DNA of 64,000 nt from Halorussus halophilus (lineage in GTDB: Archaea; Halobacteriota; Halobacteria; Halobacteriales; Haladaptataceae): positions 62,001 to 126,000 of the forward strand of contig NZ_CP044524.1 in the NCBI RefSeq assembly GCF_008831545.1. The letters run 5' to 3'. Below the pieces are notes generated by a model. That model did no database searches. It saw only the letters and a program-made list of their open reading frames with translations, and was not told the DNA's origin. Within the stretch, counting starts at the first letter, position 1, and each line of letters starts with the position of its first letter. Made by a program: the position numbers and the translations under genes. Shown one piece after another: positions 17,456 to 53,321 of the stretch.

Positions 17456-17790
17456 GGTGGCGACGGTGCGCTCCGCGCACCTGCCACCGCTTCTCGAAAA
17501 AATGTGGATCAAAAATCGACGCGCGAAATCCGAGCGCGGAGCGCACGGATTTCACACGTCTACATCGCGCTTGTGCGACTGCCGCACCGCAACCGCAGCA
17601 GCCACACGCCTCCCCACCCGATTCGCTCATCCACCGGAAGAGTTCGCACCGATGGACGCAAAACGTCCATCGAGCCTTCAGTCACTTCGTTCCTGAAGAC
17701 TTCGCTTGGCTTTCGAGCGGTGGCTCACATTCGTTCGCCAAGACCTCGCACGGAGTCGGCGCGACACGAAGGTCGCGCCAGCGCACGCCA
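17456..17790 (+). repeat. Intergenic structured repeat, copy A
   Basis: No gene in 17378-17824. The region is a chain of short hairpins: GGTGCGC/GCGCACC (17465-17481), GAAATCCG/CGGATTTC (17525-17553), GATGGACG/CGTCCATC (17651-17671), CTTCAG/CTGAAG with loop TCACTTCGTTC (17676-17698), CTTGGC/GCCAAG (17705-17742), and GGCGCGAC/GTCGCGCC with loop ACGAAG (17758-17779), followed by AGCGCACGCC. The segment GCCACACGCCTCCCC at 17601-17615 is shared with copies at 23.5, 27.0 and 53.0 kb. Confidence 0.8.
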
Positions 17791-26889: not shown

Positions 26890-27160
26890 GCGTATTTCCA
26901 CGTTCCAAGTGGCGCGCGGGAGCGACGACAGGAGCGACTCGCGCGAGGTCTGCACGAGCGACGCGAGTGCAGGCTCGCCAGAGCTTGCTCTGGCGGTGGA
27001 CGAGCGAACGGACGTGAGCGAGTCGGCTGGGGAGGCGTGTGGCTCGTGCGGTGCTGTGGGGTGCTGTGGGGTGCTGTGGGGTGCTGTGGGGTGCTGTGGG
27101 GTGCTGTGGGGTTGCGGTGCGGTCTCTCCTTGGTTTCGTGCGAGCAGGAAGCTTCAGAGA
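26890..27160 (-). repeat. Intergenic structured repeat, copy C2 (inverted), with 10-bp tandem array
   Basis: On the minus strand: ACCGCACCGC, then a CCCACAGCAC array, GCACGAGCCACACGCC, and hairpins GCCAGAGC/GCTCTGGC (26977-26994) and CTGCAC/GTGCAG with loop TCGCGTCGCTC (26950-26972), followed by ACCTCGCGCG. The hairpin order and the GAGC spacer match copies D and F. Confidence 0.75.
27051..27110 (+). repeat. Six perfect tandem copies of a 10-bp unit
   Basis: GTGCTGTGGG repeated six times without change, inside copy C2. In other copies of the family the same segment (CAGCACC on the other strand) occurs once or twice. Too short and without spacers, so not a CRISPR array. Confidence 0.9.
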
Positions 27161-38989: not shown

Positions 38990-39262
38990 TGAATTACGAC
39001 CTGTGACGCGCTCGTCTGTGTTTTCGTAATGGCGCGCGAAGTCCGCCCAGCGGGTGGACCGCGCGAAGTCTTGGCGAACGGATGTGAGCCAAGGCTCGAA
39101 AGACGAGTAGAGCGAAGTCTTTCGGTGGATGAGCAATGAGCTTGGAAGACGCGACTCGTCGCGTCTTCCGGAATCGAGTCGCGCAGTCGGGTGGGAGGGA
39201 TGTGGCTTATGCGGTGCTGTGCGGTGCGGTCTCTCATAGGCACCGGAAGTAGCTAGCTTCGA
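38990..39262 (-). repeat. Intergenic structured repeat, copy D
   Basis: In the 457-base gene-free gap between convergent genes. Read on the minus strand: AGCTAGCTACTTCCGGTGCC, GAGACCGCACCGCACAGCACC, CCACATCCCTCCCACCCGA, a palindrome (39144-39169), CGAAAGAC/GTCTTTCG (39097-39124), CTTGGC/GCCAAG with loop TCACATCCGTTC (39070-39093), then ACTTCGCGCG and a last hairpin around 39042-39060. The module order is the same as in copy F. Confidence 0.8.
39144..39169. repeat. 26-bp perfect palindrome in repeat copy D
   Basis: Two 12-base arms (GGAAGACGCGAC and GTCGCGTCTTCC) separated by 2 bases. It sits where other copies have GGAAGAC-type stems, so it can form a strong hairpin or cruciform. Confidence 0.9.
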
Positions 39263-52787: not shown

Positions 52788-52858
52788 GGGGAGATGAGTG
52801 GCGGCAGGTGACAGAAACCACCGAAAAGACCCGGTGACAGAAACCACGGGGTGGGACT

Positions 52859-52909
52859 GAAAGAGGCCGGGCGCTCGCTTCCGCAGGACGTGAGCGTCCG
52901 GGGGCTTTC
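52859..52909 (+). other. Stem-loop downstream of hemG
   Basis: Left arm 52859-52878 and right arm 52890-52909, each 20 bases, with an 11-base loop. Fifteen of 20 positions pair as Watson-Crick, and two mismatches are G-U pairs in RNA. The flanking GGTGACAGAAACCAC is duplicated at 52807-52821 and 52833-52847. May be a terminator or other RNA structure. Confidence 0.5.
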
Positions 52910-52952
52910 TACGAAGTAGTCGTAGCCGCTACTTCTTTTCGAACTGAGTCGC

Positions 52953-53210
52953 AGCTAGCTACTCCCGGTGCCGAGAAGACCGCACCACACAGCACCGCGA
53001 CGGCCACACCCTCCCCAACCGATTCGCTCACATTCGTTCGCTCATCCACCGGAAGACTTCGCTTCGCTCGTCTTCCGAGCCTTCGGCCACTTCGTTCCCG
53101 AAGACCTCGCACGGGTTTGGCGCGACACGAGGCACCGACGGACAAACCGCGTCCGTCGAGCCTGCGTTCACATCGTTCACGCAGACCGCGCAAGCGCGCG
53201 CCGGTTGCAA
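52953..53210 (+). repeat. Intergenic structured repeat, copy F (most complete)
   Basis: Lies in the 534-base gap between hemG and the SDR gene, which holds no gene I can support. It begins AGCTAGCTACTCCCGGTGCC, then GAGAAGACCGCACCAC, CAGCACCGC and GGCCACACCCTCCCCAACCG. Two rounds of the paired-hairpin module follow: GGAAGAC/GTCTTCC (53051-53076), GAGC, CTTCGG/CCGAAG (53081-53103), ACCTCGCACGGG; then GACGGAC/GTCCGTC (53137-53157), GAGC, CTGCGT/ACGCAG (53162-53184), ACCGCGC. Confidence 0.85.
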
Positions 53211-53321
53211 AGTCGTAGTTCAGAGCGAATCGACTCCGGACAATCCAACTCTCGAATTCATCGGTTAACAATTCTAGCGCGAGTCCCAGCAGTAAAACCC
53301 CTACACGCCGACGGTGTTCGC

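Follow-up and report, generated by a model that had tools for sequence, protein, structure and literature searches.

A dispersed non-coding repeat of Halobacteria with covarying hairpin stems and strand-polar loop motifs

Copies and architecture of the element

Copies A, C, D and F of a hairpin-bearing repeat lie in the window, by which we mean the whole 64-kb stretch of Halorussus halophilus DNA that was analysed. Their features, in window coordinates, are as follows.

52954..53202, plus strand: copy F, a half-unit running from the GCTAGCTACTCCCG end to GCGCGCC (from the sequence and 80 home-genome matches)
53026..53041, plus strand: P1 hairpin of copy F, GC-TCACATTCGTTC-GC, loop TC-AC..GT-TC (from the sequence and a class-wide alignment by eye)
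53050..53077, plus strand: P2a, first hairpin of the optional double-hairpin module, CGGAAGAC/GTCTTCCG
53081..53103, plus strand: P2b, second hairpin of the module, CTTCGG/CCGAAG, the hairpin originally noted
53136..53184, plus strand: second double-hairpin module, nested in the P3 loop of copy F, with hairpins at 53136-53158 and 53162-53184 (CTGCGT/ACGCAG)
17577..17789, plus strand: copy A, a half-unit, with outer P2b at 17721-17740 and P3 at 17758-17779
17650-17698, plus strand: double hairpin of copy A, nested in the P2a loop
26754..27130, minus strand: copy C, two half-units in inverted orientation, with P2a at 26976-26995 and P2b at 26950-26972 (CTGCAC/GTGCAG)
39031..39257, minus strand: copy D, a half-unit, with P2a at 39097-39124 and P2b at 39070-39093 (CTTGGC/GCCAAG)

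These hairpins are parts of a non-coding element of 100-600 bp that is scattered through the home genome. A blastn query with 52960-53225 gave 80 matches there, at no fewer than 40 loci, and forty home-genome loci were retrieved as stretches for comparison. The half-unit reads GCTAGCTACTCCCG - GACCGCACCGCACAGCACCGC - GCCACACCCTCCCCARCCGAYT - P1 hairpin - CATCC, followed by an optional double hairpin (P2a-GAGC-P2b), CTCGCRCGG, the P3 hairpin and GCGCGCC. Many Halorussus copies are made of two inverted half-units that meet at GCGCGCC, a quasi-palindrome of 250-600 bp with side hairpins; outside Halorussus, half-units make up most of the copies seen. Half-units have no terminal inverted repeats, and inverted ends are confined to the double copies.

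A sequence-only reading had drawn attention to five hairpins of this kind. All five were present, with their arms and positions as it described, and GAGC stood 5' of each. It had also placed ACYTCGC or a variant on the 3' side; this held for four of the five, as ACYTCGC itself, while the hairpin at 53162 has ACCGCGC instead. Copy A carries an additional hairpin that was missing from its list (17721-17740, TGGC-TCACATTCGTTC-GCCA).

Could any one of these features serve as the signal? The 64-kb window holds 343 perfect stems of at least 6 bp with loops of 3-14 nucleotides, and a lone 6-bp hairpin is unremarkable. The exact loop 11-mer by itself was rejected, being unenriched in the window: with up to two mismatches allowed it occurred 19 times, against 23.3 in shuffles. 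The anchored pattern GAGC..ACYTCGC was likewise set aside, since on its own, in whole genomes, it mostly reflects chance (283 matches versus 256 when the pattern is reversed, with a second comparison giving a similar picture). What sets the hairpins apart is that these features recur together in copy after copy, at one place in a repeated module.

Several peculiarities of individual copies were also seen. In copy C a tandem array of CCCCACAGCA units lies within the conserved CAGCACC segment (window 27050-27110), a local expansion that the other copies inspected do not show. At four loci (L017, L030, L053 and L058) P1 has an insert between direct repeats, for example GCGGTCCTCA...GCGGTCCTCA, the common form being CGCTCA...CGCTCA; this could be an insertion footprint. 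Adjoining copy F, at 52854-52913, is a second haloarchaeal repeat, GGGACTGAAAGG(G)GC ... GGGGGCTTTC (reverse GCCCCTTTCAGTCCCACC), which is found likewise at L033, L112, L107 and L126. It may represent a separate family of repeats, perhaps one linked to the element.

Compensated stems and a strand-polar loop

When 48 P2b copies were taken with fixed flanks and unconstrained arms, 4.83 of the six stem positions were paired, compared with 3.24 after the arms were re-dealt among copies (maximum 3.69 in 2000 shuffles). The sequence-only reading had staked its case on covariation persisting as more copies were aligned, and it did. In a 36-row alignment with eight scored pairs, two of them within the "loop," the covariation score was 0.627, against 0.199 +/- 0.024 for shuffled rows (reached in 0 of 500). 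Doubly changed cells numbered 69 versus 22.5, and 95.5% of cells were paired versus 71.4%. Sliding the partner by one to three columns destroyed the signal (score at most 0.13). The aligned copies are related and the shuffles ignore descent, a weakness that affects neither these slid controls nor the in-place compensation in Natrinema described next.

Natrinema mahii (L130) and N. versiforme (L168) carry the element at the same spot with collinear flanks. Their P3 stems are CTATCC/GGATAG versus CTCCCC/GGGGAG, two pairs having been compensated, around an identical loop, TCACTAGCGTTC. The claim that stems differ between copies and still pair is statistically supported, and it extends to orthologous copies. 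Across 205 elements we counted 66 different paired 5' arms around TC-NN-tip-NN-TC loops.

The loop, which had been called constant, is not: it is partly paired, covaries and has a variable tip. Its form is TC-RC-tip-GY-TC, that is, TC, two covarying pairs around a tip of 3-4 nucleotides, and TC again. The third and ninth positions pair and covary (A-T in 18 sequences, G-C in 15); the next pair inward is C-G, with a few T-A. Read on the opposite strand, the loop becomes GA-RC-cap-GY-GA, a GA/GA mismatch capped by cGNAg, cGNNAg or cGNABg. These three caps are reportedly the stable DNA loops selected by Hirao and by Nakano and Bevilacqua. GNRA is the RNA counterpart of such DNA caps. GCGAAGC is exceptionally stable in DNA (PMC6582339), as is d(GNA) closed by C-G (PMC5815330).

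Every hairpin with a 2x2 mismatch was counted across 1.2 Mb of loci. The commonest type was TC/TC, which is GA/GA on the opposite strand: it accounted for 113 hairpins with three-base tips, versus 23 for the next unrelated type. Three-base tips had the form TNC (GNA opposite) in 75 of the 113, against 48 of 837 other hairpins. Four-base tips fitted GNNA or GNAB in 30 of 43 TC/TC hairpins, compared with 70 of 794 elsewhere. Within the 205 elements, the GA/GA step and caps pointed one way in every case, 105 to 0. Conservation of cap and mismatch could come partly from the shared descent of cassettes. The long, perfect P1 cassettes at L169 and L244 show three-base tips facing either way (GAA or TTC, GGA or TTC), which looks like inversion of the tip through the hairpin.

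Compensated stems need not mean that the structure is used. Replication could copy a mutation from one arm of a quasi-palindrome to the other by template switching, and such arm-to-arm correction fits two observations: nearly every stem position shows all four Watson-Crick pairs, and tips in both orientations (GAA at L169, TTC at L244) are what hairpin inversion would give. It predicts no strand preference, however, and the GA/GA step and caps are polar throughout. A mismatch step flanked by pairs on both sides has been retained rather than corrected, and the residual stem mismatches are themselves biased, with 23 A.C to 9 G.T on the plus strand (p=0.02) and hence mostly G.T on the other. We regard templated correction as unlikely to be the explanation. 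These strand-specific features argue that templated copying alone is insufficient, though it may contribute, and arm correction may have helped to make stems perfect. The sequence-only reading had offered selection on structure or a copying process that templates the arms; the compensatory stems and the conserved loop on which it rested stand, while the two causes were not cleanly separated.

Is the folded molecule RNA? If the minus strand encoded a structured non-coding RNA that had spread as a repeat, the strong covariation would be expected, and a tandem GA/GA together with G.U on one strand would also suit RNA; the minus strand taken as RNA gave a z of about -2.6. Against such an RNA, Rfam covariance models found no match even at permissive thresholds. 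Its loops would be expected to favor GNRA, yet the tips are GNA and GNNA/GNAB, and GNRA was without preference among four-base GNNA tips (14 of 33); loop type is the one feature by which we distinguished DNA from RNA. The flanking genes lie in mixed orientation, inverted double elements would put both orientations into one molecule, and presence is patchy even inside genera. We consider the RNA explanation unlikely. Folding energy was rejected as a means of choosing the strand: the minus strand is more stable, but only as its composition predicts. A regulatory or terminator role was rejected as well, on the mixed orientations of flanking genes (from crude gene calls). On balance, these results favor a fold formed by DNA, and by one strand in particular.

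Range, presence and absence, and cassette turnover

An exact core 20-mer occurred in 99 of 292 Halobacteria genomes and in 38 of 77 genera, with zero matches for the reversed-pattern control. Copy number per genome ran from 0 to 109, and presence was patchy even inside genera. The 22-mer CCTCCCCARCCGAYTCGCTCAC matched Natrinema, Haloterrigena, Natronococcus, Natronorubrum, Halorussus, Haladaptatus, Halococcus, Halogranum, Halosimplex and others; among the matches listed, at least 80, all records were haloarchaeal. Near-identical copies were found in Halorussus amylolyticus, and the element is also on a few haloarchaeal megaplasmids. What had been described as a module does repeat, but it belongs to a class-wide and apparently mobile element, not to a local one. 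A viral origin was rejected: the viral contigs of IMG/VR had no match, and one phage match was at chance level.

The arrangement of copies varied among genomes. On contig C1 of G267, which belongs to the Natrinema group, roughly nine copy pairs stand back to back (minus then plus) and 100-200 bp apart, for example 144851/145031, 171604/171798 and 642025/642143, which is the opposite arrangement to that of the inverted doubles in the home genus. On contig C1 of G241, nine of ten exact core copies lie on the same strand, a possible replication-strand bias. The idea was dropped because the bias, suggestive there at 9:1, is absent in G267 (57:52).

We traced the flanks of eleven G267 copies in five related species. 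The element beside L227 is missing in five relatives, in which about 80 bp separate one flank from the other; at other sites it is present in some species and absent in others. Downstream of the gene that copy D follows, 16 loci from 15 relatives lack the element, and in G012 the genes that neighbor copy D are nearly adjacent. No target duplication or exact boundary was readable at the sites compared, because the flanks have diverged.

Elements shared between species differ in turn by whole hairpin cassettes, nested in loops and present or absent at the same point. A double hairpin lies in P1 of L244 and not of L243; cassettes in L123, L177 and L212 are missing in partner loci; and hairpin pairs differ as units between L104 and L212, L119 and L123, and L243 and L244. 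Whether elements and cassettes were gained or lost at a given site is something we infer from these comparisons.

Might the copies benefit the host, as REP-like sites for a host protein that binds them or organizes the chromosome? They are intergenic, numerous and partly retained in place across species, as such sites would be. Half of the genera and most of the sampled genomes do without the element, however, and copies come and go. A host-beneficial role is thus very improbable.

A proposed folded DNA strand and known systems like it

We give a probability of about one half to the reading that the element is non-coding, transposase-less mobile DNA whose folded single strand is kept and probably serves as substrate for an enzyme provided in trans. 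The strand opposite CCTCCCC, once single-stranded, would fold into a multi-hairpin structure, each side hairpin being a stem, a GA-GA mismatch step, two pairs closed by C-G and a GNA-type cap. Such a fold would be maintained with any pairing stem allowed, the GA/GA step and cap acting as the conserved signal. The folded strand would probably be taken up by a transposase or another single-strand DNA enzyme. Action of such an enzyme in trans would account for the dispersal, the presence and absence at orthologous sites and the strand polarity, and also for the gain, loss and nesting of hairpin cassettes. Single-stranded DNA would then be the active form, a protein would read the fold, and spread would occur by transposition in trans. 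A more specific version, which we hold only tentatively, is a class-wide archaeal mobile DNA element that is recognized mainly by its fold and grows as double-hairpin cassettes enter its loops, with an as yet undescribed enzyme of single-stranded DNA moving it.

Covariation is usually taken as a mark of functional RNA; here it occurs in a mobile repeat with DNA-stabilizing caps. It may therefore be a natural record of selection on the folding of chromosomal single-stranded DNA. The element offers hundreds of natural variants with which recognized DNA folds could be tested, as well as a lead to the enzyme that spreads hairpins in haloarchaea.

A search of the open-access literature found papers on PATEs and SMRs and no description of this element. 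Our best reading is that it resembles REPINs, PATEs/SMRs and mitochondrial double-hairpin elements, with no link found to IS605-type transposons. The PATEs of Haloquadratum are transposase-free, with near-terminal palindromes and no target duplications, and SMR-A repeats of about 110 bp target those palindromes (PMC3119063). Like the PATEs and SMRs of Haloquadratum walsbyi, the element is haloarchaeal, palindrome bearing and without a transposase, and it has repeats inside the palindromes of repeats (PMC3119063). At 100-600 bp it is too short for a transposase, as PATEs are, and it is rich in hairpins. It differs in having free stems with fixed caps, a class-wide range and several side hairpins.

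Could it be a PATE, that is, a deletion derivative of an IS200/IS605-type element moved by TnpA, its palindromes invaded by other small mobile repeats? The nested cassettes do resemble SMR-A insertions in PATE palindromes. Yet in 32 TnpA/TnpB loci from four element-rich genomes we found neither the ends nor the hairpins and palindromes of the element, save for a separate copy near a TnpB gene in L317, and many Halorussus copies have inverted ends. IS605 ancestry was rejected, since the ends do not match in these 32 loci. Y1 domains were found in G000, G267 and G209, with no link to the element's hairpins, and G001 carries the element with no Y1 transposase match. We consider a PATE origin quite improbable. 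As for MITE traits, inverted ends occur in double copies only and no duplication was readable, the comparison being with IS605-type transposons only.

Bacterial REP sequences form short hairpins. REPINs and REP sequences are dispersed and non-autonomous, and occur singly or in inverted pairs (PMC3116915). The element is similarly intergenic and dispersed, with hairpins single or in inverted pairs; no RAYT-like partner was found for it. Unlike in REPINs, its conserved sequence lies in the caps and not in the stems, and it is multibranched and nested. The element might work as PATEs or REPINs do, but with no IS605 link and no Y1 domain in G001 we assign it to neither.

Mitochondrial double-hairpin elements, repetitive and hairpin forming, also have tandem hairpins, whole units of which may be present or missing, and their copies differ by complementary substitutions (PMC2800124). 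They are organellar and unrelated in sequence, whereas the cassettes described here sit within a larger conserved archaeal element. The palindromes of Streptomyces telomeres share DNA hairpins with variable stems, conserved GNA caps and compensatory changes (PMC7205883). They mark the ends of linear chromosomes, whereas our element is a dispersed internal repeat; still, they are the closest known case of GNA-capped DNA hairpins with compensatory stems.
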